This document shows, piece after piece, positions 2,519 through 61,432 of a DNA stretch of 64,000 bases (position 1 is its first letter; each line of letters begins with the position of its first letter). Source of the DNA: Microbacterium sp. KUDC0406 (GTDB lineage Bacteria; Actinomycetota; Actinomycetes; Actinomycetales; Microbacteriaceae); contig NZ_CP091138.1 of the NCBI RefSeq assembly GCF_021582875.1, forward strand, positions 1,984,001 through 2,048,000. Direction: 5' to 3'. A program made the translations under genes and the position numbers. The notes under the pieces were generated by a model. The model saw only the letters and a program-made list of their open reading frames with translations, had not been told where the DNA came from and ran no database searches.

Positions 2519-2693
2519 GGGTCGTTGAGCGAGCCCGGGTCGTTGAGCGAGCGAGGAACGAGCGAGACGAAACGCTCCAGGTCGCGTGAGAGCGTTTCGT
2601 CTCGCTTCGCTCGCTCAACGAGCAACGGGGTGTCAGAGCTTCGGGTGACCTGAGAGCGTTTCGTCTCGCTTCGCTCGCTCAACGAGCAGCGGG
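2519..2693. repeat. Family A palindromic repeats, intergenic cluster with a tandem duplication
   Basis: The stretch begins with two left half-units (GTCGTTGAGCGAGC) and is followed by two right half-units (CGTTTCGTCTCGCTTCGCTC). The right half-unit and its flank are duplicated over about 62 nt (roughly 2586-2648 and 2651-2710). The duplicated block includes a GTCAGAGCTTCG copy that repeats the pcrA stop-codon region. No gene is seen here. Confidence 0.85.
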
Positions 2694-2695
2694 GG

Positions 2696-5175
2696 TCAGA
2701 GCTTCGTGATCGGCGCGATCTTGATCAGCAGCTTCTTCTGTCCGGCGGTGTCGAAGCGCACGTGCGCGATGCGCTTCGCGCCTTCGCCGGTGACGGCCTC
2801 GACGCGCCCCTCACCGAAGTCGTCGTGCCGGATGCGATCACCGGCTGCGAGCTCGAGGTCGCCGTTGTCGCGCACCTTCGCCGTGACCTTGTTCGGGAAC
2901 TTGTCCATCGCGGTGGACAGCGGCGCGAGGCGCTTCTCCAGCGGCTGTGCGGCGAAGCGGTCGCGGCTGCCCCCAGCGCCCTGGCGGCGCGCATTCAGGG
3001 CGCGGGACTGCATACCGCCGCGGGAGTTCACATCGCCCGGCGACTGCCGCCAGTCGATGAGGTCGGCGGGGATCTCCTGCAGGAACCGGCTCGGCATCGC
3101 CACCGACACCTCGCCGAACTGCGCGCGGGTCATCGCCAGCGACAGGTGCAGCCGCTTGCGGGCGCGGGTGATGCCGACGTAGAACAGCCGGCGCTCCTCC
3201 TGCGGCCCGCCGGGCTCGCCCGCAGAGATGCGATGCGGAATGAGGTCCTCCTCGACGCCGGTGACGAACACCGCGTCGTACTCCAGGCCCTTCGCGGTAT
3301 GCATCGTCATCAGCGACACCGTGCCCGACTCGTCGTCGAGGTCATCGGCATCCGACACCAGCGCGACCTCGGTGAGGAAGTCGACCAGCGTGCCGTCGGG
3401 GTTGTTCCGCGCGAAGTCGCGGGTGACCGCGACGAACTCGTCGAGGTTCTCGAGACGCGCCTCGTCCTGCGGGTCGCGGCTGCGGCGCAGCGCGTCGAAG
3501 TAGCCGCTCTTCTCGAGCAGCAGCGACAGTCCCTCGGCCACCGACGTCGCCGAGGGCACCTCGCCGGAAGCCGGCAGCATGATCGCCGTCGCCTCGCTGA
3601 GCACCTGGTCGAGCTGCCCGATCGCGGCCTGCAGCTTCGGACCGACCCCCAGCTGCGTCGGGTGCGACAGCGCCTCGCGGAACGTGATCCCCTGCTCCTC
3701 GGCGAAGCGCGCGATCGCCGTCTCGGTGACGTCGCCGATGCCGCGCCGGGGCTTGTTCAGGATGCGGCGCAGCGACATCTCGTCGGCGGGGTTGGCGACC
3801 GAGACGAGATAGGCCAGGGCGTCCTTGATCTCGGCGCGCTCGTAGAACTTGGTGCCGCCCATGATCTTGTACGGCACGGCGGCGCGGATGAAGATCTCCT
3901 CCAGCGCACGCGACTGCGAGTTGGTGCGGTAGAACACCGCCATCTCGGAGTACGGCATGCCCGCACGGCGCAGCGACTCCACCTCGTCGGCCACGAACTG
4001 CGCCTCGTCGTGCTGGGAGTACCCGGTGAAGCCGACGATCTTCTCGCCGTCGCCTTTGTCGCTCCAGAGCTTCTTGTCCTTGCGGTCGAAGTTGTTGCCG
4101 ATCACCGAGTTGGCGGCGGAGAGGATGTTCTGCGTCGAGCGGTAGTTCTGCTCGAGCAGCACCACCTTCGCCCCGGGAAGTCGCGCTCGAACTCGCTGAT
4201 GTTGCGGATGTCGGCGCCGCGGAAGGCGTAGATCGACTGGTCGGAGTCGCCGACGACGGTGAGCGACGCGCCCGGTTCGGATTCCCCGGTCGTTGAGCGA
4301 GCGGAGCGAGACGAAACGTCCTCCACGAGCACGAGAGGCCGGTCATCGCGTTTCGTCTCGTCGCTGCGCTCCTCGCTCAACGACCGGAAAACGCCTTCGC
4401 CCTGCACGGGCCGCGTGAGCTCGTGGATGAGCGCGTACTGGGCGTGGTTGGTGTCCTGGTACTCGTCGACGAGGATGTGCCGGAACCGTCGCCGATAGGT
4501 GTCGGCGACGTGCGGGAACGCCCGGAACAGGTACACCGTCTGCCCGATCAGATCGTCGAAGTCGAAGGCGTTCGCCTTCTGCAGCCGGCGCTGGTAGTCG
4601 GCGAAGATCTCGGCGAACAGCCGCTCGGCCGGGTCGTTCATGTTCGCGTCTCGGGAGTACGACTCGGCATCCTGCAGCTCGTTCTTGAGCTTCGAGATGC
4701 GCCCCTGCACGGATGCCGGGGTGAGACCGTAGGCATCGGCCTCGTGCTCCTTGACGAGTCGCTTGATGAGGGCGCGCGAGTCGCCGGAATCGTAGATGGT
4801 GAAGTTCTGCGTGAACCCGAACTGCCCGGCCTCGCGGCGCAGGATGCGCACGCAGGCGGAGTGGAAGGTCGAGATCCACATGCCGCGCGCTGCGTCACCG
4901 ACCAGCCCCTGAACGCGCTCGCGCATCTCACCGGCCGCCTTGTTGGTGAAGGTGATCGCCAGGATCTGGCTCGGCCAGGCCTCACGGTTTCGCAGCAGCA
5001 GCGCGATGCGGCGGGTGAGCACGCTGGTCTTGCCCGAGCCGGCGCCGGCCACGATCAGCAGCGCCGGGCCGCGGTGCGTCACCGCGTCGAGCTGCTGCGG
5101 GTTGAGTCCGGCGAGCAGGGCGTCGGTCCCCTGCGGGCCGGCGGATGCGGGGACGATGAGGGGCGCTTCTGTCAT
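2696..5175 (-). CDS. pcrA: ATP-dependent DNA helicase PcrA/UvrD (one frameshift, one in-frame repeat insertion)
   Basis: Superfamily 1A 3'-5' helicase of DNA repair and replication restart. Visible motifs: NPQQLDAV (Q motif), AGAGSGKT at residues 43-50 (Walker A), AITFTNKAAGEMRERV, DEYQDTNHAQYAL (Walker B), VVGDSDQSIYAFRG (motif III), EQNYRSTQNIL (motif IV), TMHTAKGLEYDAVF (motif V) and GITRARKRLHLS (motif VI). The C-terminal GDRIRHDDFGEGRV and KLLIKIAPITKL are typical of PcrA. A single missing base in a C run at 4171-4174 breaks the frame at DFPG/AKVVLLEQNYRS; both halves are otherwise intact, so a sequencing error is likely. A family A repeat adds about 35 residues (FRSLSEERSDETKRDD to VSSRSARSTT) between Walker B and motif III, without breaking the frame. 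Confidence 0.92.
4284..4387. repeat. Family A repeat inserted in frame inside pcrA
   Basis: The left half GTCGTTGAGCGAGCGGAGCG and the inverted right half ending CTCGCTCAACGACC flank a 35-nt centre. Read on the minus strand it encodes SLSEERSDETKR, a centre, and VSSRSARSTT. It lies between LTRPVQGEG and ASLTVVGDSDQS, where PcrA homologues have a variable surface loop. Confidence 0.9.
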
Positions 5176-5221
5176 GGCCCTTCGAGTCTAGATCGCCCCT
5201 CCGACGCTCTCGCCCGCCGGG

Positions 5222-5227
5222 TAGGAT
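5222..5227 (+). promoter_or_regulatory. Probable -10 box (TAGGAT)
   Basis: TAGGAT matches the TANNNT actinobacterial -10 pattern and lies 40 nt before the next plus-strand gene, which has a GGAGG ribosome site. No clear -35 was assigned. Confidence 0.45.
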
Positions 5228-5266
5228 CGAGAAGACGAAGCGGTTCCGCTGTGCGGAGGTGACGAC

Positions 5267-5662
5267 ATGATCCGTGTTCTCGACGAAGACCAGTGCTTCA
5301 GCCTGATGGCGTCCACGACCGTTGCGCGGATCGGGTTCCTGCACGACGGACGCATGGAGATCATTCCCGTCAACTTCCTGGTCCGTGATCGTCTCCTGAC
5401 CTTCCGGGTCAGCGAGGACGGCATCCTCGCCTCGCTGCCGGAACAGCCCGATGTCGCCTTCGAGGTCGACCATCTCGACGACCTCGCCGGCGCCGCGTGG
5501 AGCGTTCTGATGAGCGGACGCGTGGAGCCGATCGATCCCAGCGAGGTGAACAGCGGCGACGCCGCCCGCACCCGCCCCTGGGCCGGCGGGACGCGCGAGC
5601 TCTGGCTGCGCTTCGTCCCCGAGCGCGTCTCCGGCCGCTCGGTGCGCCGCGACTACGACTAG
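5267..5662 (+). CDS. Pyridoxamine 5'-phosphate oxidase-like flavin/F420-binding protein
   Basis: A 131-residue protein of the split-barrel PNPOx-like family: LDEDQCFSLMASTTVARIGFL opens the barrel, followed by IIPVNFLVRDRLLTFRVSEDG and VAFEVDHLDDLAGAAWSVLMSGRVEPI. The C-terminus (ELWLRFVPERVSGRSVRRDY) is typical of the small actinobacterial members. Family members bind FMN or F420 and act as oxidoreductases, mostly of unknown substrate. GGAGG lies 7 nt before the ATG. Its stop codon overlaps the stop of the convergent gene by 4 nt. Confidence 0.8.
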   Translation: MIRVLDEDQCFSLMASTTVARIGFLHDGRMEIIPVNFLVRDRLLTFRVSEDGILASLPEQPDVAFEVDHLDDLAGAAWSVLMSGRVEPIDPSEVNSGDAARTRPWAGGTRELWLRFVPERVSGRSVRRDYD

Positions 5663-6690
5663 CGGCGGAAGAACGCGACGCCGAGGTCGGGATGGTCGAC
5701 GAACACGCCGTCGACGCCGGTGCGGGCGATCGCGTCCCACTCCGCCTCGTATTCGCCGAACGCCGCCTTGCCGCCGTGGCCGCGATAGGCGGCGTCCAGG
5801 AAGTGGTTCTCGGGGCGGCAGGTCCAGGTGAACACGCGCAGCCCCCGAGCATGGGCGTGATCCACCAGAGCGGTGCCCTTCGACAGGCTCGGGGCCCCGG
5901 GCAGCAGCATCTTCTTGTTCACGCTGATCCCGTCGACGGTGCCGGCCAGCCGGTCGAGACCTGTCGGCTCCATCTCGGACCGGTAGGTCGGCGCCGCTCG
6001 GCCCAGTGCGGCGACCTGATCGAACGGCTTGCCCGCCGCCTCGACGAGGTAGATGTACGACGCGGAGACGCCCTGCTGACGCAGTCGGTGCAGCACGGTC
6101 TGCTCGAAGGACTCGACGATCAGCGGCAGTTCGCCGTCCGCCCATCCGGCGGCACGCAGGTCGCGCACGATCAGCGGCACCAGGTCGAGCCCGATGCCCT
6201 CGAAGTAGGTGGCGTGCTTGATCTCGAGCACCACGCCGATCTCGCGGCCGTGCTCGACCGAGCCGGCCCGCACCAGGTCGAGCAGATCGGTCAGGCGCAG
6301 GATCGGCTGGGCACCGTCGAAGCTGGCGCTGGACGGGCGCAGTTTCGGCAGCCGCTCCCTGGTGCGCAGCGTGCTCAGCTCGGCCCAGGTGAAGTCCTCG
6401 GTGAACCAGCCGGTGTGCGCCTCGCCGTCGACCCTCTTCGTGGTGCGGCGATCCGCGAACTCGGGATGCTCCGCGACATCCGTCGTGCCGGAGATGTCGT
6501 TCTCGTGCCGGATGACGAGCACGCCGTCGCGGGTCGCGACGATGTCGGGCTCGACGGCGTCGACCCCCATCGCGAGCGCGAGCTCGTACGAGGAACGGCT
6601 GTGCTCGGGGCGGTAGCCGGGGGCACCGCGATGCCCGATGACGAGCGGAGATCTCCTGGCCACGCTTTCAGCGTAAAGCACCCCGTTCAT
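5659..6690 (-). CDS. Glycerophosphodiester phosphodiesterase family protein
   Basis: A 343-residue GDPD/GlpQ-type enzyme. The catalytic signature VIGHRGAPGYRPEHSRSSY is near residue 17, followed by GVDAVEPDIVATRDGVLVIRHE (metal-binding E/D and second histidine) and VVLEIKH. HARGLRVFTWTCRPEN and GVDGVFVDHPD close the TIM barrel. By family it hydrolyses glycerophosphodiesters to glycerol-3-phosphate and an alcohol. No lipobox or convincing signal peptide is visible, so the location is uncertain. GGAGG lies 6 nt before the ATG, which supports this start. Confidence 0.88.
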   Translation of the reverse strand: MNGVLYAESVARRSPLVIGHRGAPGYRPEHSRSSYELALAMGVDAVEPDIVATRDGVLVIRHENDISGTTDVAEHPEFADRRTTKRVDGEAHTGWFTEDFTWAELSTLRTRERLPKLRPSSASFDGAQPILRLTDLLDLVRAGSVEHGREIGVVLEIKHATYFEGIGLDLVPLIVRDLRAAGWADGELPLIVESFEQTVLHRLRQQGVSASYIYLVEAAGKPFDQVAALGRAAPTYRSEMEPTGLDRLAGTVDGISVNKKMLLPGAPSLSKGTALVDHAHARGLRVFTWTCRPENHFLDAAYRGHGGKAAFGEYEAEWDAIARTGVDGVFVDHPDLGVAFFRR

Positions 6691-6702
6691 AGAGAACCTC
6701 CG

Positions 6703-6708
6703 TAGACT
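6703..6708 (+). promoter_or_regulatory. Probable -10 box (TAGACT) of the BI-1 gene
   Basis: TAGACT fits TANNNT and sits about 55 nt upstream of the start, giving a leader of roughly 45 nt that carries the AGGAG ribosome site. Confidence 0.4.
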
Positions 6709-6762
6709 TGTCGGACACTGACCGATCCCCCGGGACCGATCCCCTCAGGAGTGATCCGCACC

Positions 6763-7674: not shown

Positions 7675-7687
7675 ACACGACATCGCG

Positions 7688-7719: not shown

Positions 7720-7727
7720 CCGCATCC

Positions 7728-9529: not shown

Positions 9530-10213
9530 ATGGATCCCTCGGAGGCCCTCGTCGATGAGGTGCGCGCTGTGCTGCGGGACGCCGCAGACCCGGCGCTCGC
9601 GCCCGGGCAGCAGGCGTACATGAAGTCGGCGATGCCGTTCCTGGGCGTGCGCGTGCCGGAGGTGCGACGGCACGTGGTGGGGACAGCCCGGGCCGAGAAG
9701 GATGCCTGGACGCTGCGTGAGGCGGCCCTGACGCTGTGGCGAGAGGCCTCGTACCGCGAGGAGCGCTACGCCGCGCAGGCGCTGATGGCGCTGCCGCCGC
9801 TGCGTGGACGGCTCGACCAGCTGGACGTGCACGAGGAGATGGTGCGCACCGGAGCGTGGTGGGACCACGTCGACGAGGTGGCGCATCGGCTGGCCGAACT
9901 GCTCGACGCGCATCCGGCCGAGATGGCCGTCGAAATGCGCGTGTGGTCAGGCGACGAGGACTTCTGGATGCGACGGGTGGCGATCATCTCGCAGCTCGGG
10001 CGGAAGGACCGGGTGGACCGGATGCTCCTCGTCGATGCGATCGAGCCGAACATCGCCGATTCCGAGTTCTTCATCCGCAAGGCCATCGGCTGGGCGCTGC
10101 GCGACCTCGGCAAGAGTGATCCGGACTGGGTACGGGGCTTCGTCGCGGAGCATCCGGGTCTCTCGCCCCTCTCGCGCAAGGAGGCTGTCAAGCACCTCGC
10201 CCCCGGTCGTTGA
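9530..10213 (+). CDS. DNA alkylation repair protein (AlkD-like HEAT-repeat glycosylase family)
   Basis: A 227-residue all-helical protein. The sequence runs MKSAMPFLGVRVPEVRR, EASYREERYAAQALMALP, TGAWWDHVDEVAHRLAELL, MRVWSGDEDFWMRRVAIISQL, FFIRKAIGWALRDLGKSDPDWV and LSPLSRKEAVKHL. The tryptophan/aspartate pair in WWDHVD and the RRVAI and KAIGWALR helices are the AlkD DNA-binding features. AlkD-type enzymes excise bulky or cationic alkylated bases. The start is leaderless. The last codons, including the stop, come from the family A repeat (GGT CGT TGA), so the natural C-terminus has been altered by the repeat. Confidence 0.85.
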   Translation: MDPSEALVDEVRAVLRDAADPALAPGQQAYMKSAMPFLGVRVPEVRRHVVGTARAEKDAWTLREAALTLWREASYREERYAAQALMALPPLRGRLDQLDVHEEMVRTGAWWDHVDEVAHRLAELLDAHPAEMAVEMRVWSGDEDFWMRRVAIISQLGRKDRVDRMLLVDAIEPNIADSEFFIRKAIGWALRDLGKSDPDWVRGFVAEHPGLSPLSRKEAVKHLAPGR

Positions 10214-10278
10214 GCGAGCGTCGGTCGTTGAGCGAGCGCAGCGAGACGACCACCTTCGTCGCTCGCTCAACGACCCGC
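10203..10278. repeat. Family A repeat bridging two convergent gene ends
   Basis: Two left half-units (GGTCGTTGAGCGAGCG) are followed by an inverted right half (CTCGCTCAACGACC). The GGTCGTTGA ends provide the stop codons of both the AlkD-like gene and, on the opposite strand, lactate dehydrogenase. Confidence 0.85.
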
Positions 10279-14344: not shown

Positions 14345-14599
14345 TCTCCCCTGACCAAAGCTCTCCATCCCTGCGTCCCCTCGCAAAGCTCTCCGCCCCC
14401 ACACCAGAGGCATGAGGGCGGAGGGATCGTCGCGGAGCGAGCATCGGGGAGGAGCGAAGCGGAGAGGCTTGGACCGCGGTTCCTGAGCGAGCGGAGCGAG
14501 TCGAAGGGCTGCGAGCGCAGCGACGATCCCGCAGTCCGCACCCCGTTTCGTCTCGCTCCGCTCGCTCAACGACCGGGCAGTCGGAAGCCCGCCCCTATC
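14345..14599. repeat. Repeat-filled intergenic stretch with a divergent family A element
   Basis: A CCAAAGCTCTCC segment near 14355 pairs loosely with GGAGAGGCTTGG at about 14460. From about 14481 to 14577 a degenerate left half (TGAGCGAGCGGAGCGAGTCG) is followed by a canonical right half (CGTTTCGTCTCGCTCCGCTC). The left half reads GAGTCGAAGGGC, a junction resembling family B. No gene is seen between the HAD gene and guaA. Confidence 0.7.
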
Positions 14600-16186: not shown

Positions 16187-16695
16187 CGGATGCCTTCCGT
16201 GGTGGATGTCGATGTGGGCTGAGCCTCCGACTCGGCCGGGCTCTGGGTCCCTGAGCCGGCCGAAGGGTCGCGCGCCGCGAGGTAGGACTTCACGTCGCGG
16301 GCGACGCGGGTCTCCATGAAGAACGAGAGCAGCGGCACGACACCGCCGAGGGCGAGCATGATGAGACGCGGGAAGCGCCAGCGCATCAGGCTCCACATGC
16401 GGAAGCACGAGAACAGGTAGACGACGTAGAACCAGCCGTGCGCGACCAGGATGCCGAGCGACAGGTTGAGGCCGTCGCCGGTGGACTCCAGGCCCTCCGG
16501 CCCCTCGACGACGGGGGCGAACCACAGGAACCCGCCTGAGCCCCCCAGGAAGAGTTCGAGATGGATCGGCGTGTACTTCAGCACCATCTCGGTGACCAGC
16601 AGCAGCAGCATGACGCCGGTGATGATGGACGCGATCTGGTAGAACTTCAGCGCACCGCGGATCGCCGGGAAGCTGGCGACTTTCGGTTCGGGCAT
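16183..16695 (-). CDS. DUF3817 integral membrane protein with repeat-derived tail
   Basis: 170 residues with three hydrophobic segments ([61 protein letters not shown]). This is the DUF3817 (YdzA-like) pattern; DUF3817 proteins often precede guaA in actinobacteria and have no known activity. The C-terminal [16 protein letters not shown] is encoded by a family B repeat, so this tail is probably not ancestral. Confidence 0.85.
16235..16271. repeat. Family B repeat inside the DUF3817 gene
   Basis: TGGGTCCCTGAGCCGGCCGA followed by AGGGTCG matches the family B consensus GGGTCCCTGAGCCTGTCGAA. It is in frame and encodes DPSAGSGTQ on the minus strand. Confidence 0.8.
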
Positions 16696-31737: not shown

Positions 31738-31821
31738 CCGCCGAGGTTTCGACTCGCTGCGCTCGCTCAACCTGAGCCGGCCCGCGTCAAGTCCGCTCCG
31801 CGGCCGTGACCCGCTGCCGAC

Positions 31822-35885: not shown

Positions 35886-36896
35886 CGAGAACCGGGTCCC
35901 TGAGCCCGTCGAAGGGCCCACGACCGGCAGCATCCGCCGTCCGAAGACCACCGGACTCGCCAAGGGCCCCGCGGCCCCCGGCGTGGCGAAGGTCGATCCG
36001 ATCCTGGTGGCGGATGCCGTGCAGCGGCGCTTCGGCGGCCTCGTGGCCGTCGACGTGGACCACCTCGAGATCCCCGCGGGGCGATCACGGCTCTGATCGG
36101 CCCGAACGGCGCCGGCAAGACCACGCTGTTCAACCTGCTCTGCGGCTTCGACAAGCCGAACACCGGCACCTGGTCGTTCGACGGCCGCAACCTCGCCGGC
36201 GTGCCGTCGTTCAAGGTCGCTCGGATGGGCCAGGTGCGCACCTTCCAGCTGACCAAGTCGCTGTCGCTGCTGACCGTGCTCGAGAACATGAAGCTCGGCG
36301 CCCCCGGCCAGAAGGGCGAGCGGTTCTGGCAGAGCCTGTTCCCCGGTTCGTGGCGCAAGCAGGAGAGCGAGATCGAGGAGCGTGCGCGCGAGCTGCTCGC
36401 CCGGTTCAAGCTCGACGCGAAGGAGAAGGACTTCGCGGCCTCGCTGTCGGGCGGCCAGCGCAAGCTGCTCGAGATGGCGCGTGCGCTGATGAGCGACCCG
36501 ACGCTGGTGATGCTGGACGAGCCGATGGCGGGGGTGAACCCGGCGCTGACGCAGTCGCTGCTGGACCACATCCTCGACCTGAAGGACCGCGGCATGACCG
36601 TGCTGTTCGTCGAGCACGACATGCACATGGTGCGGCACATCGCCGACTGGGTGGTCGTGATGGCCGAGGGGCGCGTGGTGGCCGAGGGGCCGCCCGAGGA
36701 CGTCATGGAGGATCCGGCCGTGGTCGACGCCTATCTCGGCGCCCACCAGGACCTCGATCTCGGTGTCGTCACCGGTCGCCTCACCGTCGTCGACGAGGCG
36801 ACCGCAGAGCGCGCGGCGCAGCTGCGCGAGAAGATCGAGACCGAGGCGGAGGCCGAGATCGAGGCCGAGGACGCCGCTGAGGAGGAAAAGTCATGA
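35875..36896 (+). CDS. livG: ABC transporter ATPase LivG (one frameshift; repeat-derived N-terminus)
   Basis: About 340 residues after repair. The ABC domain has LIGPNGAGKTTLFNLLCGF (Walker A), LSGGQRKLLEMARALM (signature) and VMLDEPMAGVNPAL (Walker B, the MAGVNP form typical of LivG), then LFVEHDMHMV. The start is an unusual TTG overlapping the livM stop by 11 nt. Residues 6-16 (RVPEPVEGPTTG) come from a family B repeat. The acidic C-terminal tail (EKIETEAEAEIEAEDAAEEE) is low complexity. A lost base in the G run at 36078-36081 breaks the frame at IPAG/AITALIGPNG. Confidence 0.87.
35892..35919. repeat. Family B repeat in the livG 5' end
   Basis: GGGTCCCTGAGCCCGTCGAA plus GGGCCC; in frame, encoding VPEPVEGP near the LivG N-terminus. 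Confidence 0.85.
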
Positions 36897-37716
36897 CGGA
36901 TACTGCTTCGACGGGCCCTTCGACGGACTCAGGCCCTTCGACAGGCTCAGGCCCTTCGACAGGCTCAGGGACCCAGAGTGACGACCGCGAGGTCATCGTC
37001 CAGCTGACCGACGTGCACGCCGGCTATCTGCCCGGGGTGAACATCCTGAACGGTGCCAATCTCGTCGCCCGGCAGGGCGAGCTGATCGGCATCATCGGCC
37101 CGAACGGCGCCGGCAAGTCGACGCTGCTGAAGTCCATCTTCGGCATGGTGCACGTGCGCTCCGGCGACATCACCGTCAACGGCGAGAGCATCGTCGGTCT
37201 GAAGGCCGACAAGCTCGTCCGGCGCGGCGTGGCCTTCGTGCCCCAGACGAACAACGTCTTCCCCTCGCTGACGATCGCGGAGAACCTGCAGATGGGGCTG
37301 TACCAGAACCCCAGGATCTACACCGAGCGCCTGGAGTTCGTCACCGGCATCTTCGCCGAGCTCGGCAAGCGCCTGAACCAGCGCGCCGGTTCGCTCTCGG
37401 GCGGCGAGCGGCAGATGGTGGCGATGTCGCGCGCCCTGATGATGGACCCGTCGGTGCTGCTGCTCGACGAGCCCTCGGCGGGTCTCTCCCCGTCAGGCAG
37501 GACGACGCGTTCATCCGCGTCTCCGACATCAACAAGGCCGGCGTGACCACCATCATGGTCGAGCAGAACGCGCGCCGATGCCTGCAGATCTGCGACCGCG
37601 GCTACGTGCTCGATCAGGGTCGCGACGCCTACGAGGGCACCGGCCGCGACCTGCTGAACGATCCGAAGGTCATCGGCCTGTACCTGGGCACGCTGGGCCA
37701 GGAGGATGCCGCGTAG
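36893..37716 (+). CDS. livF: ABC transporter ATPase LivF (one frameshift; repeat-derived N-terminus)
   Basis: About 274 residues after repair. Walker A is IGPNGAGKSTLLKSIFGM, the signature LSGGERQMVAMSRALMM, and Walker B VLLLDEPSAGLSP, followed by VEQNARRCLQICDRGYVLDQG, the LivF H-loop region with Q in place of H as in the family. The N-terminal 30 residues (STGPSTDSGPSTGSGPSTGS) are three tandem family B units read in frame. A lost base near 37493 breaks the frame at SPVRQDDAF. The ATG overlaps the livG stop (ATGA). Confidence 0.87.
36906..36975. repeat. Tandem family B repeats in the livF 5' end
   Basis: Three successive copies of GGCCCTTCGACAGGCTCA-like units of 21 nt, the last continuing into GGGACCCAG. 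The 21-nt period keeps the reading frame (GPSTGS repeats). Confidence 0.9.
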
Positions 37717-40087: not shown

Positions 40088-40122
40088 CGAAGGGCCCGGA
40101 TGCCAGGCATCCGGGCCCTTCG
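40088..40122 (-). terminator. groES hairpin terminator
   Basis: CGAAGGGCCCGGATGCC and its exact complement flank a single base. It lies 20 nt beyond the groES stop. A short family B remnant (CTGAGCTTGTCGAAGC) follows at about 40123. Confidence 0.8.
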
Positions 40123-40142
40123 CTGAGCTTGTCGAAGCGTCG

Positions 40143-40637: not shown

Positions 40638-40643
40638 GGGGTG

Positions 40644-42311
40644 GTGGAGATGACCGAGCTGACCGCACTGCTCACCCTCGACGGGCTGTCGCTCCTCGAC
40701 GAGCTGGGGCCGATCACCTCGGCCGCAGAGGTCGCGAAGGCCGTCTCCCGGCTGCGCGCCGCCGGGCACTCCCCCGACCTGGTGTCCGCCGTGGTCGGTC
40801 AGGCGCACCTGCGGACGAAGGCACGGGCGAAGTTCGGCGAGTTCGCCGGCCGGATGCTGTTCACCCGGGCCGGCCTCGAGCAGGCGACGCGCCTGAACGT
40901 CGCGACGCTGCACGCGGTGCGGATGCGGCAGTCCGGCATCTCGCACGTCTCGGACCTCGGATGCGGCATCGGGGGCGACTCGCTCGCGTTCGCCGGTGCG
41001 GGCCTCGCCGTGCACGCGGTGGACGCCGACGACGTGACCGCCGCCATCGCCGCCTACAACCTCGCGCCGTTCGGCGATGCCGTGTCGGTGTCGCACGGCA
41101 CGGCCGAGGAGCACGCCCCCTCCTCCCCGGTCGTTGAGCGATCCTCCTCCCCGGTCGTTGAGCGAGCCTCCTCCCCGGTCGTTGAGCGAGCCTCCTCCCC
41201 GGTCGTTGAGCGAGCCTCCTCCCCGGTCGTTGAGCGAGCCTCCTCCCCGGTCGTTGAGCGAGCGACGAAGGAGCGAGACGAAACGGTCCCAGGCGCCGAG
41301 GAAGCTGAAGGCGTTTCGTCTCGCTCCGCTCGCTCAACGACCGATGGGGATGACGGCGTTTCGTCTCGCTCCGCTCGCTCAACGACCGATGGGGATGACG
41401 GCGTTTCGTCTCGCTCCGCTCGCTCAACGACCGATGGGTATGAAGGCGTTTCGTCTCGCTCCGCTCGCTCAACGACCGATGGGGATGAAGGCGTTTCGTC
41501 TCGCTCCGCTCGCTCAACGACCGAGGGGTATGAAGGCGTTTCGTCTCGCTTCGCTCGCTCAACGACCGAGGAAGCTGAAGGCGTTTCGTCTCGCTCAGCG
41601 ACCACGGATCACGCCGTCTGGCTGGATCCGGCCCGCCGCACGGCGGGGCACTCCGAGACGCAGCGCGTCGCGGCATCCGACTGGTCGCCCTCGCTGGACT
41701 GGTGCTTCGATCTGGCCGCACGGGTGCCCACCGGGATCAAGCTCGGGCCGGGCCTTGACCGCGATCTGATCCCCGACGACGTCGAGGCGCAGTGGGTGAG
41801 CGCCGACGGCAGCGTCGTCGAACTGGTGCTGTGGAGCGGGGCGCTCGCGCGCGCAGGCATCCGTCGTGCGGCGCTCGTCGTGCGCGGCGACGCCGTGCAC
41901 GAGCTGACCGGCGCGGCGGATGCCGAGGACGCACCGGTGCGCGAGCTCGGCGCGTTCCTGCACGAGCCGGACGGCGCGGTCATCCGCGCCCGCCTCATCG
42001 GCGACGCCGCCCGGATGCTGGATGCCGGCATGCTCGACGAGAGGATCGCCTACCTCACCGGCGACGCGGCGGTCACCAGCCCGTTCGTGCAGTCCTTCCG
42101 GGTGCGCGAGACGATGGCGGTGCATCCGAAGACGATCAATGCCGCGCTGCGCGCGAACGGGATCGGCCGTCTCGAGATCAAGAAGCGCGGCATGGACGTC
42201 GACCCGGCGGCGTTCCGGAAGAAGCTCACGCTGAAGGGGTCGGAGGAGGCGACGCTGATCCTCACGCGCACGACGGCCGGACGGGTCGCGATCCTCGCCG
42301 ACCGGGTGTGA
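40644..42311 (+). CDS. SAM-dependent methyltransferase-like protein (THUMP-like) with an internal repeat array
   Basis: 555 residues. An N-terminal helical domain (AKAVSRLRAAGHSPDLVSAV, KFGEFAGRMLFTRAGLEQAT) precedes a Rossmann methyltransferase fold with VSDLGCGIGGDSLAFAGAGL at about residue 103 and AVHAVDADDVTAAIAAYN. After AEEHA the protein is interrupted by about 165 residues of repeat peptide. The domain then resumes with AVWLDPARRTAG (DPxR active loop), PTGIKLGPGLD and LGAFLHEPDGAVIRARL, and ends in a small THUMP-like segment (MAVHPKTINAALRANGIGRL). Without the insertion it would be about 390 residues, the usual length. The substrate is unknown. The array stays in frame throughout, so the gene is probably expressed. 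Confidence 0.8.
   Translation: MEMTELTALLTLDGLSLLDELGPITSAAEVAKAVSRLRAAGHSPDLVSAVVGQAHLRTKARAKFGEFAGRMLFTRAGLEQATRLNVATLHAVRMRQSGISHVSDLGCGIGGDSLAFAGAGLAVHAVDADDVTAAIAAYNLAPFGDAVSVSHGTAEEHAPSSPVVERSSSPVVERASSPVVERASSPVVERASSPVVERASSPVVERATKERDETVPGAEEAEGVSSRSARSTTDGDDGVSSRSARSTTDGDDGVSSRSARSTTDGYEGVSSRSARSTTDGDEGVSSRSARSTTEGYEGVSSRFARSTTEEAEGVSSRSATTDHAVWLDPARRTAGHSETQRVAASDWSPSLDWCFDLAARVPTGIKLGPGLDRDLIPDDVEAQWVSADGSVVELVLWSGALARAGIRRAALVVRGDAVHELTGAADAEDAPVRELGAFLHEPDGAVIRARLIGDAARMLDAGMLDERIAYLTGDAAVTSPFVQSFRVRETMAVHPKTINAALRANGIGRLEIKKRGMDVDPAAFRKKLTLKGSEEATLILTRTTAGRVAILADRV
41117..41610. repeat. Coding tandem array of family A half-units
   Basis: Six left half-units of 24 nt (TCCTCCCCGGTCGTTGAGCG, encoding SSPVVERA) are followed by a full left arm (ERDETV). 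Seven right half-units of 45 nt come next (GTTTCGTCTCGCTCCGCTCG, encoding GVSSRSARSTTDGDD), the last one truncated. Both periods are multiples of three. Variation lies in the last 4 codons (DGDD, DGYE, DGDE, EGYE, EEAE). The opposite strand is also open throughout (SLSERSETKR repeats). Confidence 0.95.
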
Positions 42312-42314: not shown

Positions 42315-43406
42315 TCACTGCGACTTCTTGCCGGTCGTGTCGTCGATCGCCGGGTCGGACGGCTCGCCGCCACGGATGACGGTCAGGAACTGCCCGTTCG
42401 GCGTGTTCCGCAGTTCGTACGTCACACCCGGCATCGTGAGCCTCGTCCCCGGGATGTCCGCCTGGATGTCGCAGCCCTTCGCGATCAGGTGCGTCGTGTC
42501 GGCCACGAGCAGGCAGTTCGCGGAGTCCTCGTACCAGATCGGCGTCTCCCCGTCGTAGCCGACGATCCGCAGATAGTTGCCCTCGTACCCGGCGGCGACG
42601 ATCGTCTTCGCGATGTCGAGCTCGGTGCCGGTGAAGTTCGCGGTCCAGTCGTCGTCCCCGAACGTCATCCCCCACTTGTTCATGATCACGGTCAGGTCGC
42701 CCTGGATGTCCCTGGCCACGATCGCCTGAACGATGCTTCCCTGCTCGTCGCGGAGCCGCGTCTGTGCGGAGAGCTGTCCCCAGCCGTCCTGGTCGTCGTC
42801 CGTGTTCTTCGGATCCGGGGCCGGCGCGCAGCTGATCGTGTTGTCGGTGTCGGGAGTCAGAAGCAGGCACTCCAGCTTCGTCTCGCCCTGCGTCGCGTAC
42901 CAGGCCGTGATCCCGTACTTCTCCCCCAGCATGCGGATCGAACCGGCGTCGTAGTCGCCGGAAGCCTCGAGCTGCGCCCAGGCCTCCTGCTGCTCCGCGT
43001 CCATCGCGGGGCCGGTGCCACGGCCGAACAGCAGCCAGCCCGCGCCGAGACCGATGAGAAGAGCGGATGCCGCGGCCACGACCGTCAGGAGGATGCGGTG
43101 CCCTCTGGTCGTTGAGCGAGCGGAGCGAGACGAAACGCCCTCACCCCCATCGGTCGTTGAGCGAGCGGAGCGAGACGAAACGCCGTCAGCCTCCCCGACA
43201 TCTGAGACCGTTTCGTCTCGCTCGTTCCTCGCTCGCTCAACGACCCCGGAGGGAAGATCGGCCGTTGAGCGAGGGACCGGGGGCCGCGCGGCGTCCTGCA
43301 GCTCGGCGAGCTCCTGCGCCTCGGCCGGGCTCAGCCCTCCGCCCGGCCCGTAGGCGCGGCGCTGCAGATCCCGGATGCGCTGTCGCTCGTCTTCCGTCAT
43401 GCTCAC
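42315..43406 (-). CDS. Single-pass membrane protein of unknown function, paralog 2, with family A insertion
   Basis: 363 residues. A short N-terminal motif (RIRDLQRRAYGPGGGLSPAEAQELAELQ) leads to a repeat-encoded stretch (VVERARNERDETVSDVG, VSSRSARSTTDGGEG). One membrane span follows (ILLTVVAAASALLIGLGAGWLLFG), then an extracytoplasmic domain of about 240 residues with four or five cysteines (LECLLLTPDTDNTISC, ANCLLVADTTHLIAKGC). It is 4 nt coupled (GTGA) to the next gene, a paralog. No family recognised; the outer domain could be a binding or sensor module. Confidence 0.75.
   Translation of the reverse strand: MSMTEDERQRIRDLQRRAYGPGGGLSPAEAQELAELQDAARPPVPRSTADLPSGVVERARNERDETVSDVGEADGVSSRSARSTTDGGEGVSSRSARSTTRGHRILLTVVAAASALLIGLGAGWLLFGRGTGPAMDAEQQEAWAQLEASGDYDAGSIRMLGEKYGITAWYATQGETKLECLLLTPDTDNTISCAPAPDPKNTDDDQDGWGQLSAQTRLRDEQGSIVQAIVARDIQGDLTVIMNKWGMTFGDDDWTANFTGTELDIAKTIVAAGYEGNYLRIVGYDGETPIWYEDSANCLLVADTTHLIAKGCDIQADIPGTRLTMPGVTYELRNTPNGQFLTVIRGGEPSDPAIDDTTGKKSQ
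43103..43270. repeat. Family A repeats inside paralog 2
   Basis: Two left arms (GTCGTTGAGCGAGCGGAGCG) at about 43109 and 43153, one right arm (GTTTCGTCTCGCTCGTTCCT) at about 43212, and a degenerate left arm at about 43260. All are in frame with the minus-strand gene. Confidence 0.9.
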
Positions 43407-44491
43407 TCCGGCGTCTGGCCCGCGGCGTCACCGGTCGCGGGAGCCTCGTGCCCGACCATGGTCGTGAGTCGAGTCCCCTGATTCGTGTCCAGCAGTCCGT
43501 ACGTGGCATTCGGCAGTTCGATCACGACGTCGCCGGAGTCAGGCTCACAGGACTGCTGGGTGATGCCGCCGAGATCGGCGACATACAGACAGGTCTCCTC
43601 GCCCTGGGACATCCAGATCGGCGTCCCTCCGTCGTATCCGGCGATCTGCATGGATGTACCGTCGATCCCCGTCTCCGCCACGATGTTCTTCGCGATCTGG
43701 AGTTCATCGCCGACGTACATCTGCGTCCAGTCCCACGTCTGGGACTGGTCCCATCTCGACAGCACCGCCGTCGGTGCGCCCCGCACGTCTCGCACGACCA
43801 CGCCGCCGACGACGGTGCCCTCGTCGTCATCGAAGTCGACCTGGGTCGACAGCGGCATCTGCTGGCCGTGCTCGTTCTCCTCTGCGTGCCGGTCGGTCGG
43901 CAGGCATCCGATTGACGTCTGCTTCGAGGGGGTGAGCATGACGCATTCGGTCTTGGCGTCGTCCTGCGTCGCGTACCAGGCAGTGATCCCGTACTGCTCG
44001 CCGAGCATGCGGATGGACCCGGCGTCGTACTTTCCGGATGCCTCGAAGTCCGCCCATGTCTGCTGCTGCTTCGCGTCCAGCACCGGTCCGGTGTCACGAC
44101 CGAACAGCAGCCAGCCTGTGCCGAGACCGATGAGAAGAGCGGATGCCGCGGCCACGACCGTCAGGAGGATGCGGCGACTTCTGGTGGTCGTTGAGCGAGC
44201 GACGCGAGACGAAACGGTCTCACCCCGATCGGTCGTTGAGCGAGCGGAGCGAGACGAAACGGTCTCACCCTTCCCGACACCTGAGAGCGTTTCGTCTCGC
44301 TCGTTCCTCGCTCGCTCAACGACCCCGGAGGGAAGCTCACCGCCAACGACCTCACCCTCCCCGGCACTTGGGGAAGGGGGCTGCGCGGCGTCCTGCAGCG
44401 CGGCCAGCTCGTCCGCCTCGGCGGCGCTCAGCCCGCCGCCCGGGCCGTAGGCCCGGCGCTGGAGCTCGCGGAGGCGCTCGCGCCCCGGCAT
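43403..44491 (-). CDS. Single-pass membrane protein of unknown function, paralog 1, with family A insertion
   Basis: 362 residues with the same plan as its neighbour. It has RLRELQRRAYGPGGGLSAAE, a Pro/Ser-rich linker and repeat peptide (VVERARNERDETLSGVG, VSSRSARSTTDRGETVSSR). The span is ILLTVVAAASALLIGLGTGW, and the outer domain has SIRMLGEQYGITAWYATQDD, TECVMLTPSKQTSIGC, ETCLYVADLGGITQQSC and YGLLDTNQGTRL. The two genes arose by tandem duplication. The repeat insertion is at the same site in both, so it predates the duplication. No function recognised. Confidence 0.75.
   Translation of the reverse strand: MPGRERLRELQRRAYGPGGGLSAAEADELAALQDAAQPPSPSAGEGEVVGGELPSGVVERARNERDETLSGVGKGETVSSRSARSTTDRGETVSSRVARSTTTRSRRILLTVVAAASALLIGLGTGWLLFGRDTGPVLDAKQQQTWADFEASGKYDAGSIRMLGEQYGITAWYATQDDAKTECVMLTPSKQTSIGCLPTDRHAEENEHGQQMPLSTQVDFDDDEGTVVGGVVVRDVRGAPTAVLSRWDQSQTWDWTQMYVGDELQIAKNIVAETGIDGTSMQIAGYDGGTPIWMSQGEETCLYVADLGGITQQSCEPDSGDVVIELPNATYGLLDTNQGTRLTTMVGHEAPATGDAAGQTPE
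44183..44335. repeat. Family A repeats inside paralog 1
   Basis: Two left arms (about 44187 and 44231) and one right arm (about 44289, GTTTCGTCTCGCTCGTTCCT). The order and in-frame placement match paralog 2. Confidence 0.9.
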
Positions 44492-45992: not shown

Positions 45993-46578
45993 CCATGCTT
46001 CCTTCCAACGGGGTTCGTGGCTGGGTCCCTGAGCTCGTCGAAGGATCCTCCGGGGACGCTTCGACAGGCTCAGCGACCCAGTCTGTCGAAGGCTCAGCGA
46101 CCCAGCCTGTCGAAGACTCGATGGCCGAGGCGGCCCGCCCCGCCAGCCCGATCTTCATCACGATGGCGTCGATCCCGCCCTTGTAATACCGCGGGCGGCG
46201 TCCGATCTCGACGAAGCCCTCGGCGAGGTACAGCGCCTGTGCGACCTCGTTGTCGTCGCGCACCTCGAGGAACGTGTCGCGCGCGCCGCGCTCGCGTGCC
46301 TGGTCGAGCAGCAGGCGCAGCATCCGCCGCCCTCGGCCCTGTCCGCGGAACGCGGGGTCGAGTGCGATGGTCTGGATGTCGGAGTCGGGGGCGCCGGGCA
46401 GCGCCCGCACGCCGCCGTAGCCGACGACGCGGCCGTCCTCGTCGTCGACGAAGTACCGGTTGTGCGCGCTGGTGATCTCGGTGGCCATGGTCTGCTCGCT
46501 CCACGCGTCATCGGGGAAGGACGAGTTCTCCAGTGCCATGATCGCGCCGAGGTCGTGGATCGTCGCGGGGCGGATCAC
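45985..46578 (-). CDS. rimI: Ribosomal-protein-alanine N-acetyltransferase RimI with repeat-derived tail
   Basis: 197 residues. GNAT fold: [44 protein letters not shown] (acetyl-CoA loop RGQGRG), [29 protein letters not shown] and DAIVMKIGL. The normal protein ends near MKIGL. Here about 50 extra residues follow ([30 protein letters not shown]), encoded by family B repeats. The GTG start overlaps the tsaB stop. The order tsaB-rimI-tsaD is conserved in many bacteria. Confidence 0.92.
46018..46120. repeat. Cluster of family B repeats in the rimI 3' end
   Basis: GGGTCCCTGAGCTCGTCGAA, an inverted CTTCGACAGGCTCAGCGACC, then two more CTGTCGAAGGCTCAGCGACC-like copies, all in frame with rimI on the minus strand. 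Confidence 0.88.
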
Positions 46579-56622: not shown

Positions 56623-56642
56623 GCGGTGTGCTCCCCTTCTGC

Positions 56643-56737
56643 TCCTCGCCGAAGCCCCTCCTGATCGCCGAGACCCCTCCTGGGTGACGTCGCTGCGGCG
56701 GGGCCTCGGCGGCAGAAGGGGGTCTCGGCGGAGAAGG
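56643..56737. repeat. Family D palindromic repeat, second copy
   Basis: CGCCGAGACCCCTCCT (56666-56681) pairs with AGAAGGGGGTCTCGGCG (56714-56730). An extra CGCCGAAGCCCCTCCT copy lies at about 56647. Located between acpS and alr. Confidence 0.75.
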
Positions 56738-56743
56738 AACGGG

Positions 56744-57106: not shown

Positions 57107-57157
57107 CGGATCAGCCTACCGGGGCGGGGTCGATGAGCTCTCTGCGGTGCAGGATCC

Positions 57158-57371
57158 TCTGCGGGTGGCGGAGGTTTCTGGGGATGGCGGCAGATCCCGC
57201 CGCGATTCGTCCGCCGGGTGCAGATCCTGCCGCCAGCTGCACGACACGACGACGCCCACGGTGTCCGCAGATCTCGGGCATCCGCCCTTGCAGGCGGCGG
57301 ACGAATCTACGGATGGCGGAGATTCCGCCGGTGTGTCCACCGCCGAACGCAGATCGATCCGCCACCTGCAG
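57158..57371. repeat. Family C palindromic repeats, two copies
   Basis: Units at 57158-57240 and 57288-57371 with GGCGGCGGACGAATCTACGG and GGATGGCGGAG arms against CGCAGATCGATCCGCCACCT. The centre contains GGTGTGTCC. They fill the gap between acpS and the SRPBCC gene; no gene is seen. Confidence 0.75.
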
Positions 57372-57383
57372 GTCAGGCCAGGG

Positions 57384-57875
57384 TCAGAGGGCCCCGAACC
57401 GGGCCTCGTATTCCGGCGAAAGTTCTGCGAACCGGTCATCCCATTCCTGCTCGAAGGACTCTCCGGCGAGATGAGCCCTGAGCCGCTCCAGATACGTCTG
57501 CCAGCCGGCACCGTAGAAGATCGAGCGGATGCCGGTGTGCACGAGGCGCATCCGGGTGCCGCCCTCGACCTCTTCGAGGGTGACGACGACCTCGGTGGGC
57601 TCCTCCTCGATGGCGTGCCAGGTGGTGGTGAATGACCGCGGGGCGTCGCAGGCGGTGATGGTGCCGGTGGCCCAGGAGGGCTCGTCGCCGTTCGCAGCGA
57701 CGGCCCAGGTGCCGCCGAGACGCAGGTCGCCGGTGTACTCGACCATCCAGCGCGACAGGCGCTCCGGCGTGGTGATGGCCTGCCAGAGGTCGTCGATGCC
57801 GGTGGCGTAGACGTCTTCGTAGACCAGCCGGTAACCGGACGGATGCTTCTCGATGACGGGACTGGTGATGCTCAT
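57384..57875 (-). CDS. SRPBCC/AHSA1-type protein
   Basis: 163 residues of the START-like fold: YEDVYATGIDDLWQAITTPERLSRWMVEYTGDLRLGGTW, VVVTLEEVEGGTRMRLVHTGI and GAGWQTYLERLRAHLAGE. This is the Aha1 C-terminal-like group typical of proteins encoded with ArsR regulators. The ligand is unknown. Its ATG overlaps the ArsR stop (ATGA), so the two genes are co-translated. Confidence 0.87.
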   Translation of the reverse strand: MSITSPVIEKHPSGYRLVYEDVYATGIDDLWQAITTPERLSRWMVEYTGDLRLGGTWAVAANGDEPSWATGTITACDAPRSFTTTWHAIEEEPTEVVVTLEEVEGGTRMRLVHTGIRSIFYGAGWQTYLERLRAHLAGESFEQEWDDRFAELSPEYEARFGAL

Positions 57876-58222
57876 GAGATCTTCCTCTCCCTGTTCTCGG
57901 ATGCCGCGCGGCGACCCCGCGCGACCTCGGTGTGCAGGGCGTCGAGGCGCTGCGCGAGCGGATCGGTCAGCTGCGCGAGGGCTCGGGATGCGGCATCCAC
58001 TCCCGCGCGATCCAGCGCGTAGATCCGGCGCGTGCCCTCGGCGCGCACGGTCGCGAAGCCGTTCTCGCGGAGCACCCGCAGGTGCTGCGAGACCGCCGGC
58101 TGCGAGATGCCGAACTCGTCACGGGCGATGTCGGTCAGCACGCCGGCCGGCTGCTCGCCCAGGGCGAGCACCGCGAGCAGGCGCCGCCGCACGGCATCCG
58201 CCAGGACCTCGAACTCATGCAC
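57872..58222 (-). CDS. ArsR-family transcriptional regulator
   Basis: 116 residues. Winged helix: VLADAVRRRLLAVLALGEQP, VLTDIARDEFGISQPAVSQHLRVLRENGFATVRAEGTRRIYAL. No cysteine metal site is present, as expected for the SRPBCC-linked ArsR group. The GTG at 58222 lies 6 nt after a TATAAT box, implying a leaderless transcript. A palindrome overlapping that box suggests autoregulation. Confidence 0.88.
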   Translation of the reverse strand: MHEFEVLADAVRRRLLAVLALGEQPAGVLTDIARDEFGISQPAVSQHLRVLRENGFATVRAEGTRRIYALDRAGVDAASRALAQLTDPLAQRLDALHTEVARGRRAASENRERKIS

Positions 58223-58228
58223 GGCTTC

Positions 58229-58250
58229 ATTATATAAGTCTATTCTTATA
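58229..58250 (-). promoter_or_regulatory. Leaderless promoter (TATAAT) with overlapping palindromic operator
   Basis: On the minus strand ATAAG-N6-CTTAT immediately precedes and overlaps the TATAAT box (58229-58234). This is a likely ArsR autorepression site, and its AT richness stands out in this GC-rich DNA. Confidence 0.7.
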
Positions 58251-58268
58251 TGCGCCAGAAGCTCTTCG

Positions 58269-58348
58269 CCCGGCGGACCGATCTGCGGATGGCGGAGGAT
58301 TCCGCGGAGTGTCCGTTGCCGGATGCAGAATCGTCCGCCATCTGCGGT
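58269..58348. repeat. Family C palindromic repeat
   Basis: CGGCGGACCGATCTGCGGAT and GGCGGAGGATTCCGC arms, central GAGTGTCC, then GCAGAATCGTCCGCCATCTG. It lies just upstream of the AbiEi/DUF559 gene. Confidence 0.75.
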
Positions 58349-58447
58349 AGTGCCACTCACCCTCCACAACGAGGCTCTCCCAAGATCCATCCACATCGCG
58401 GCTTTTCGATGTCCGGCGTCGCTCTGAGATCGACCAGGATCACCAGC

Positions 58448-59279
58448 ATGATCTCGGCCCGCCAGCTCGTCGACCACTTCGGTGGCATCGCCCGCAGCAA
58501 GCAGCTCGCTCCATTCGGATTCAGCCGTTACCGGCTGGACCGCGCCGCGCGGACCGGCGAGATCGACCGCATCCGCCCTGGAGTCTTCGCCACCGCGTCT
58601 GCCTCACCCTCCGCCCGCTCGGCGGCTGCCCACGGAGGTGCGCTCACGTGTTCTGCGGCGCTGCGGCACCGCGGCGTGTGGGTGCTGACCGATGACACCA
58701 CACCGCATGTGTGGATGGGACGCGCGGGACGCACGCATCCCCACGACCGGTGCAGTTGCACCGCGCACTTCCGCCCCGGTCGAATGACCTTGGGCGTCGC
58801 CGAGGTCGAGCACGCGCTCGTCCACGCCTACGAGTGCCACGGCGACGAGTTCTTCTTCGCCGCGTTCGAATCCGCCTGGAACAAGCGACTCATCGGGGCC
58901 GGCGAGCGATCCCGCATCCGCGCTGCGCTCCCGGCATCCGCCCGCTGGCTGGTCGACTTCGCACGCGGCGACGCCGAGAGCGGGCTCGAATCGCTCGTGC
59001 GCCTGCGTCTGCACCTCTTGGGCATCAGCGTCGAGACGCAGGTCGACATCCCGGGCGTCGGGCGCGTCGATTTCGTGATCGACGGGCGGCTGATCATCGA
59101 GGCCGACGGCCGGGAGAACCACGAAGGTGAAGGGAATCGCCAGAAGGACCTGAGGCGGGATGCCGCCGGCATCCGCCCTCGGCTACGAATCACTGCGATT
59201 CGACTACTGGCAGATCATCGACGAGTGGGAGCGGGTGCTCCCCGCGATCCTGGCTGCGCTGGCTCGAGCTCGAGCCTGA
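58448..59279 (+). CDS. AbiEi-like N-terminal domain plus DUF559 (Vsr-like) nuclease-fold protein (one frameshift)
   Basis: About 277 residues after repair. The N-terminus (ISARQLVDHFGGIARSKQLA, RYRLDRAARTGEIDRIRPGVF) resembles the AbiEi antitoxin winged helix. The C-terminus is a DUF559 restriction-like fold: GISVETQVDIPGVGRVDFVIDGRLIIEADGRENH, where D, the DFVI Asp and EADG fit the nuclease acidic triad. FDYWQIIDEWERVLPAILAA ends it. A gained base near 59167 breaks the frame at RDAA/ASALGYESLRFD. Such proteins are common as solitary genes in actinobacteria; the role is unknown. No AbiEii partner is present. It is flanked by family C repeats on both sides. Confidence 0.75.
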
Positions 59280-59294
59280 CGCCCGATCCGTGCT

Positions 59295-59377
59295 CTGCGG
59301 ACGGCGGACCGATCAACAGACGGCGGACGATCCCCGGCGTGTCCCCCGCCGGACGCAGAACGGTCCGCCAACCGCAA
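59295..59377. repeat. Family C palindromic repeat
   Basis: GCGGACGGCGGACCGATC and GACGGCGGACGATCCCCGG arms, central GGCGTGTCC, then CGCAGAACGGTCCGCC. It lies between the DUF559 gene and the glmS end. Confidence 0.75.
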
Positions 59378-59434
59378 GCGACACGACGACGGATGCCCCG
59401 GAGGCTCCGAGGCATCCGAACGTCCGAACGAGAC

Positions 59435-61279
<1,845 letters not shown>

Positions 61280-61330
61280 GGGTTCAAGAGTAAGGGCGCG
61301 GTTTTGCGAGGGTTCCGAACCAATCGGTTC

Positions 61331-61432
61331 CGGGTCGTTGAGCGGAGCGACGAAGGAGCGCAGACGAAACGCCTTCACCCCGCCAGGAGAGTCACTGCGT
61401 TTCGTCTCGCTTCGCTCGCTCAACGACCTGAG
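61331..61432. repeat. Family A repeat between coaA and glmS
   Basis: Left arm GTCGTTGAGCGGAGCGACGA with a small rearrangement, a centre, and the right arm CGTTTCGTCTCGCTTCGCTC ending AACGACC. It starts 51 nt upstream of glmS and stops just short of the coaA stop codon. Confidence 0.88.

Follow-up and report, generated by a model that had tools for sequence, protein, structure and literature searches.

A hairpin repeat superfamily linked to a stand-alone GIY-YIG nuclease gene in Microbacterium and other bacteria

The window analysed here is the 64,000-nucleotide stretch at bases 1984001-2048000 of the genome of Microbacterium sp. KUDC0406, a single contig of 3.61 Mb. A sequence-only reading had reported a palindromic repeat at nine places in it, and all nine do hold the sequence, whole or in part, with 17 half-sites in the window (20-mer, at most 3/20 mismatches) against 0.04 in shuffles. 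We find that this repeat belongs to a superfamily with a common, covarying grammar, which is linked to and co-diversifies with a stand-alone GIY-YIG nuclease gene. The copy number of the repeats is associated with the clade of the nuclease, and insertions differ between species.

The repeat had been described as a palindrome with an inverted copy. The inverted arms are indeed present, but they are not identical: the palindrome is asymmetric and usually combines an exact arm A, whose 28-nt core is CGTTGAGCGAGCGNAGCGAG[A/T]CGAAACG, with an inverted and usually longer variant arm B, mostly of 34-37 nt and of several types. The first element (2516-2692) lies in the gap that separates the uvrD stop from the next gene, with a B arm at 2541-2574 (+) and A arms at 2593-2620 (-) and 2657-2684 (-); at 2516-2551 the start of the arm is repeated in an 18-bp tandem. 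The second (4287-4387) lies inside uvrD/pcrA itself (2696-5175, minus strand), where an A arm at 4291-4318 (+) and a B arm at 4349-4382 (-) contribute SLSEERSDETKRDDRPLVLVEDVSSRSARSTT in frame to a variable loop of the protein. Three places lie between convergent genes, namely a degraded or compacted element at 10203-10275, a partly degraded one at 14479-14573 with a degenerate left arm and an A arm at 14544-14571 (-), and a solo variant arm on the minus strand at 31744-31773, the closing stem of which, AGGT...ACCT, is still complementary. An array at 41119-41607 is composed of tandem 24-bp truncated arms, a B arm at 41252-41285 (+) and six A arms (-) that recur every 45 bp. The two periods are each divisible by 3, and the array is in frame within a THUMP-like-domain protein (40641-42311). 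The elements at 43108-43245 and 44187-44324 are built alike, the former from A arms at 43110-43137 and 43155-43182 (+) and an inverted B arm at 43209-43242, the latter from A-type arms at 44189-44216 (a variant) and 44234-44261 (+) and an inverted B arm at 44288-44321. The last element (61333-61428), with a B-type arm at 61336-61371 (+) and an A arm at 61398-61425 (-), is located 3' of a PRK-like gene and 5' of a GATase/SIS-domain gene, both on the minus strand. Two of the four in-gene places first proposed are secure, namely UvrD and the array, but those at 43108 and 44187 are intergenic according to a simple gene caller.

Just past the uvrD/pcrA element the frame of the gene shifts (window 4102-4165), giving overlapping open reading frames at 4102-5175 and 2696-4165. 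In most relatives uvrD/pcrA is a single frame, open over about 800 aa or more, and the change is either an assembly error or a real break. Each A arm, at 4291-4318 and elsewhere, also carries two AGCGA words; AGCGA-quadruplexes, which would be an alternative DNA structure, are described in PMC5442326.

Copies of the repeat are not confined to the window. A genome-wide search with the consensus (30-mer, two free positions, at most 2 mismatches) gave 161 arm matches, which are single arms rather than complete palindromes, and none with the reversed control. Across the genus Microbacterium the number of arm matches is patchy, reaching 111 in one relative. Anatomy and gene context were taken from 100 of the 161 arm places, in stretches totalling 370,915 bp. 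An inverted partner within 90 nt accompanies 52 of the 117 A arms in these stretches (48 with a B arm and 4 with an A arm), leaving 65 without; the 4-mers 5' of the A arms are CGGT in 55, TGGT in 33 and GGGT in 15 cases, so that mostly GGT precedes the closing stem. Tandem arrays occur with periods of 13, 18, 24 and 45, and a 13-bp repeat, GAGACGAAACGCA, stands in runs right after the A arm at loci L098, L094, L105 and others. The RNA folds of six elements have z values from -3.65 to -7.84. A twelfth of the genome (1.81-2.11 Mb) holds 24 of the 100 listed copies, and there is none in 0.90-1.20 Mb.

A close examination of the arms revealed a common rule, N3-YGAG-(inner)-CGAR-N3', under which the repeat first reported is the long class of the superfamily. 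In the own-genome stretches the pattern TGAGC(2-16)[T/A]CGAA is matched 228 times, 161 of them with at least 2 complementary closing bases, while two control motifs gave 12 matches each, none with 2 complementary closing bases. The closing stems vary but stay complementary (CGT/ACG, CCC/GGG, CGC/GCG, CAC/GTG, AGGT/ACCT), with ten different 3-nt stems occurring at least 8 times. When the stem was not required in the search, at least 3 complementary closing bases were found in 244/412 matches near the nuclease gene introduced below and in 7/43 far from it. The Y-R pair covaries as well, T-A being replaced by C-G in other lineages. A short class, TGAGCCTGTCGAA and near forms, obeys the same rule, as do the five short-class hairpins in the window: CCCTGAGCCGGCCGAAGGG (16249-16267, +), CCCTGAGCCCGTCGAAGGG (35898-35916, +), CCCTGAGCCTGTCGAAGGG (36952-36970, -), CGCTGAGCTTGTCGAAGCG (40121-40139, +) and CGCTGAGCCTGTCGAAGCG (46057-46075, -). 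We infer from this grammar that an arm may fold, as single-stranded DNA, into a hairpin in which tandem sheared G.A pairs join YGAG to CGAR. Short-class hairpins would have one such G.A module, A arms two and the common B arms three, and GNA or sometimes GNNA mini-loops would cap the long-class hairpins. A precedent is GCGAAGC, an extraordinarily stable DNA hairpin with a GAA mini-loop and a sheared G-A pair, according to PMC6582339.

In KUDC0406 one repeat copy is accompanied by a small gene outside the window (G000:C1:3170562-3170858), which led to a profile search of genus genomes. It encodes a stand-alone GIY-YIG protein of 99 aa (PF01541, E 1.3e-16) that matches the UPF0213 structures PDB 1zg2 (E 4.7e-21) and 1ywl (3.6e-16); residues Y6, Y16, G18, H30 and E63 are invariant in 17 aligned nucleases, and R26 is nearly so. 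PF01541 matches occur in 59/59 genus genomes, mostly as UvrC-size frames, and the small stand-alone genes with a strong match are nearly all in element-bearing genomes, with hairpins adjoining. With the own protein as query, matches were obtained in 82/198 genus genomes. The 96 genus loci (18 from the PF01541 search and 78 collected afterwards) have hairpins within 350 bp on both sides in 77 cases, on one side in 13 and on none in 6. Twelve UvrC-size GIY-YIG loci (L135-L146) gave two isolated matches without class cores.

The hairpin class beside the gene follows the nuclease protein tree. Clade C (25 rows) has class C in 23 and none in 2, clade S (21 rows) has class S in 20 and C in 1, and clade L (50 rows) has class L in 43, none in 5 and C in 2; the tree requires 12 class changes against a shuffled mean of 45.4, a value as low being reached in 0/200 shuffles. 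The copy number follows the clade too, by statistics that ignore species kinship: at least 10 long-class arms are present in 45/49 L-clade carriers and 25/149 other genomes (Fisher 8e-22), and at least 20 short-class hairpins in 19/21 S-clade carriers and 17/177 others (1e-14). Cross-class associations are much weaker, with odds ratios of 2.2-2.7, some of them nominally significant. On a 30-genome UvrD tree about 3 of 4 independent pairs agree and none disagree, the pairs being too few.

Several of the GIY-YIG genes contain in-frame stops (locus L130 and genomes G005, G217, G220, G128 and G178). The genome of L130, G014, keeps 49 long arms, so repeat copies can outlive the gene. At L132 (G050) the nuclease frame runs into tandem short-class hairpins, giving repeated ASTSSATKGD peptides at its own C-terminus. 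In G200, G215, G160, G106 and G213, all of them assembled as a single contig or in large contigs, a C-clade gene lies about 4-5 kb from the record end, which would suit a conserved gene near the origin better than a mobile one.

The arrangement is also seen outside Microbacterium. Our named-genome set, made up of the best 80 of 579 relatives, overlaps in species with the 96 genus loci and includes Actinomycetota, Bacteroidota, Spirochaetota, Fibrobacter and Ignavibacteria. A TGAG/CGAA hairpin lies within 400 bp at 66/80 of these loci, on both sides at 51, whereas the zone at 1400-1800 bp gave 4 and 0; near matches to four other motif pairs numbered 0-5. Ten of the loci that lack the TGAG/CGAA form were inspected and read CGAG...CGAG, a compensatory change of T-A to C-G, and with both forms combined a hairpin is present within 350 bp at 78/80 loci and on both sides at 63. 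Hairpins stand on both sides in Bacteroidota and Spirochaetota, with Muricauda, Tannerella and Treponema among the cases, and on one side or none in Ignavibacteria and Fibrobacter. Where hairpins are both-sided, the chosen pair faces inward in 87/140 loci. The plasmid and phage collections gave 3 and 4 matching records, of which four loci were fetched: three alphaproteobacterial plasmid loci have hairpins on both sides, upstream only and not at all (Sphingomonas), and the one phage locus is without hairpins. A Muricauda-type 24-mer was searched in eight genomes; its class is present in three, once on each side of the gene, and apart from one further one-mismatch match in one genome there are no dispersed copies of the word in the eight, as would be expected if the element had given rise to few derivatives or none. 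The flanks of the gene differ between loci by a gene caller trained only on Microbacterium: 53/69 named loci with enough flank have no same-side flanking family common to another locus, and within Microbacterium a flanking family is common to 16/351 locus pairs.

Inside genes the repeat can be followed in the proteins. Copies are mostly intergenic, with 13 of 86 clusters called in-gene although coding sequence is called in 83.5% of the DNA examined; the array at 41119-41607 is an additional in-gene case, missed by the retrained gene caller. Convergent gaps outnumber divergent ones, with 17 and 9 of the 86 clusters. Among the genes hit are, by Pfam, those of UvrD, UvrC, DnaX (two arms), a DEAD/DUF3418 helicase, an ArgC-type semialdehyde dehydrogenase, an M13 peptidase, an MMPL protein and others. 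It had been claimed that arm A reads as peptide in all frames save one, and five of its six frames are indeed open and one has a stop. The in-gene copies are read as VVERAERDET or a variant (seven), VSSRSARSTT or a variant (four), SLSERSETK (one) and RFVSLRSLND (one), and none uses the stop-bearing frame; the gene models at L064 (an N-terminal insert) and L114 (C-terminal) may be wrong.

The M13 peptidase can be compared between species at one site. Its domain has 215 residues against 205 profile positions, the excess being the length of the 30-nt arm, and the loop in the own genome is longer by 30 nt and has an arm A of the long class. Of the 57 relatives that have the gene 19 were fetched; a short-class-like hairpin stands there in three, in either orientation, and 16 have no hairpin of this kind, 13 of them being short and empty at the site and 3 having longer linkers of another sort. 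The flanking linker, where a target-site duplication was looked for, varies between species and so does not fix the ends of the insert. At the UvrD loop the long-class word is absent in 29/29 fetched relatives (of 56 with the gene), and one of these has a short-class hairpin. Different hairpin classes at one site amount to natural replicates, and the whole is an actinobacterial case in which proteins of repair and replication gain peptides in frame from repeats.

The repeat had been put forward as a candidate mobile, protein-invading element with an enzyme acting in trans. The 161 arm matches, the patchy counts in the genus and the differences at the M13 site speak for mobility, which we regard as probable; an enzyme acting in trans is plausible. 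That repeat and nuclease are partners we hold with high confidence. As a mechanism, we propose that the nuclease would cut arm hairpins when a strand is exposed in replication, transcription or repair, and that repair by copying or template switching would then spread hairpin pairs. The gene between inward-facing hairpins would be the autonomous form, the dispersed A-spacer-B palindromes would be derivatives resembling miniature inverted-repeat transposable elements (MITEs) or REPINs, the hairpin-forming doublets of repetitive extragenic palindromes (REPs), and solo arms and arrays would be by-products; a copy inside a gene would persist if it had entered a loop without breaking the frame. Mobilisation in this manner, by hairpin cutting and repair, we regard as somewhat favoured, and on balance we take the proposal as a whole to be the best explanation.

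A number of points weigh against this proposal. Neither cleavage nor transposition was observed, and the evidence here is computational. GIY-YIG enzymes are hydrolytic nucleases, which leaves the joining step without an explanation. By DNA nearest-neighbour energies the single-arm fold is not favoured (arm A z +1.6; 193/200 shuffles fold as well), and the long class has two possible registers, the second being TCGT/ACGA around TGAG/CGAG; the hairpin claim therefore rests on comparative evidence. As first and last base, T...G is as common as C...G in distinct sequences (53 each), and 163/178 T...G matches come from long-class arms read in the second register, which have the T...A partner as well. 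GNA or GNNA tips, counted in 188/413 distinct hairpins at all nuclease loci and in 1.9% with the inner part shuffled, speak for the hairpin but come from a scoring of our own that rewards tandem G.A. The YGAG/CGAR pattern has a background in G+C-rich DNA, with a match at 550-900 bp in 47/176 loci and on both sides in 8. Genome G018 has a strong small GIY-YIG match and 0 matches of the first repeat pattern; at least 10 long arms occur in 19/116 genomes without any of the three clades, fewer than 10 long-class copies in 4/49 L-clade carriers, and the own genome, one of the 17/177 above, lacks an S-clade gene and has 169 short hairpins. The disregard of kinship in the copy-number statistics belongs here too. 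Finally, differences in flanking genes also increase with species divergence, and seven Microbacterium loci do have a common neighbourhood.

The rival that survives best is that the nuclease does not move the repeats, which would instead be target sites for control of DNA uptake or transformation, or for processing of exposed single-stranded DNA, kept and spread by selection and recombination. This is reportedly the picture of the Ssn nucleases and NTS repeats of Neisseria. It would give the same linkage and the same match of clade and class, it agrees with the persistence of repeats in genomes without the gene, and we know of no joining activity of such a nuclease alone. Nevertheless, the different hairpin classes at one M13 peptidase loop across species, the in-frame insertions within UvrC, DnaX and ArgC, and the gene-plus-hairpin units at varied places all look like mobility, and we consider this rival rather unlikely. 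The partnership question is directly testable, since the nuclease gene sits with its own hairpin class and its clade predicts class and copy number.

Gene and repeats could also both be passengers, with the repeats multiplying by slippage and recombination of unstable G+C-rich palindromes and the gene tolerating them nearby. The tandem expansions with their four periods are what such a process would produce, but the match of three clades to three classes, the class-specific association with copy number and the same arrangement in distant phyla are left unexplained, and we judge it improbable. Still less credible is an RNA-level element, a terminator or mRNA-end hairpin dispersed by selection, which would suit the strong RNA folds of the full palindrome and the excess of convergent gaps but does not predict solo arms within genes, arrays, different classes at a single site or the linkage to a nuclease. 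An integron attC-like reading was considered as well and not adopted.

We give hardly any credence to a REP/REPIN element moved by a RAYT (REP-associated tyrosine, Y1) transposase, the family suggested by the sequence-only reading: the inverted doublets with a short spacer and the high, mostly intergenic copy number would fit, but there is no GTAG-type tag, the 5' flank being mostly GGT, and PF01797, to whose detectable Y1 enzymes this verdict applies, has no match in the own genome and a match in 1/59 genus genomes, while the same search was positive in 5/14 control genomes and the gene that the hairpins do flank is the GIY-YIG one.

A bolder claim, which we advance only tentatively, is that at least four phyla have a mobile element of a separate kind, in which a GIY-YIG gene of about 100 aa between inverted G.A-pair single-stranded DNA hairpins would have hundreds of gene-less derivatives in some genomes and would move by nicking and repair without a transposase. 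If true, the type of enzyme that is missing from REP classes reported without one could be found here, and housekeeping proteins would gain new in-frame peptides from the element.

Several known systems can be compared with the element. In the searched literature on Microbacterium REPs, actinobacterial RAYT, in-protein palindromic elements, and GIY-YIG proteins with repeats, transformation or palindromes, no title or abstract opening among those listed describes the element, and the short-class sequence words returned only literature on other subjects. As described in PMC3116915, REPIN and REP-RAYT systems are alike in their inverted hairpin doublets, high copy number, clusters and a single-copy enzyme gene adjoining its own repeat type, but here the enzyme is GIY-YIG and not Y1, there is no GTAG tag and the arms are unequal. 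The CGTC-tagged REPs of Di Nocera and others, which include neisserial dRS3 and rickettsial RPE-4/RPE-6, are likewise REP-like; according to PMC3733652 they have copies inside genes of DNA repair (excinuclease proteins, UvrD/REP helicase), and no dedicated transposase was found for them. Their definition in that text (a CGTC tag or TGTC/CCTC, an 8-9 bp stem mostly AT-initial, a 4-5 nt loop) differs from the present repeats, which have GGT before the closing stem and a different stem and loop. Rickettsia palindromic elements, compared by their description in PMC3733652, are similar as palindromes read through as peptides in proteins. Insertion sequences and MITEs resemble the present system in an enzyme gene bounded by inverted ends common to short non-autonomous copies, as at the 77/96 genus loci with both-sided hairpins. 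For the Rickettsia elements we know of no partner enzyme. The UPF0213 structures 1zg2 and 1ywl represent the protein family of the partner, and their entries are hypothetical proteins without an assigned repeat. The closest match in kind would appear to be the Ssn site-specific single-strand nucleases, GIY-YIG proteins that Chenal, Veyrier and co-workers are said to have described with the NTS repeats of Neisseria in Nat Commun in 2025. There a small stand-alone GIY-YIG protein reportedly goes together with a cognate sequence in many genomic copies, and both are present here. Features found here that may set the present system apart are the YGAG/CGAR grammar, the GNA loops, the module ladder, the inverted repeats flanking the gene, the in-frame invasion of proteins and the range of phyla. 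By this analogy, the element and its nuclease would seem to be a variant of the known Ssn-type kind rather than a new kind.

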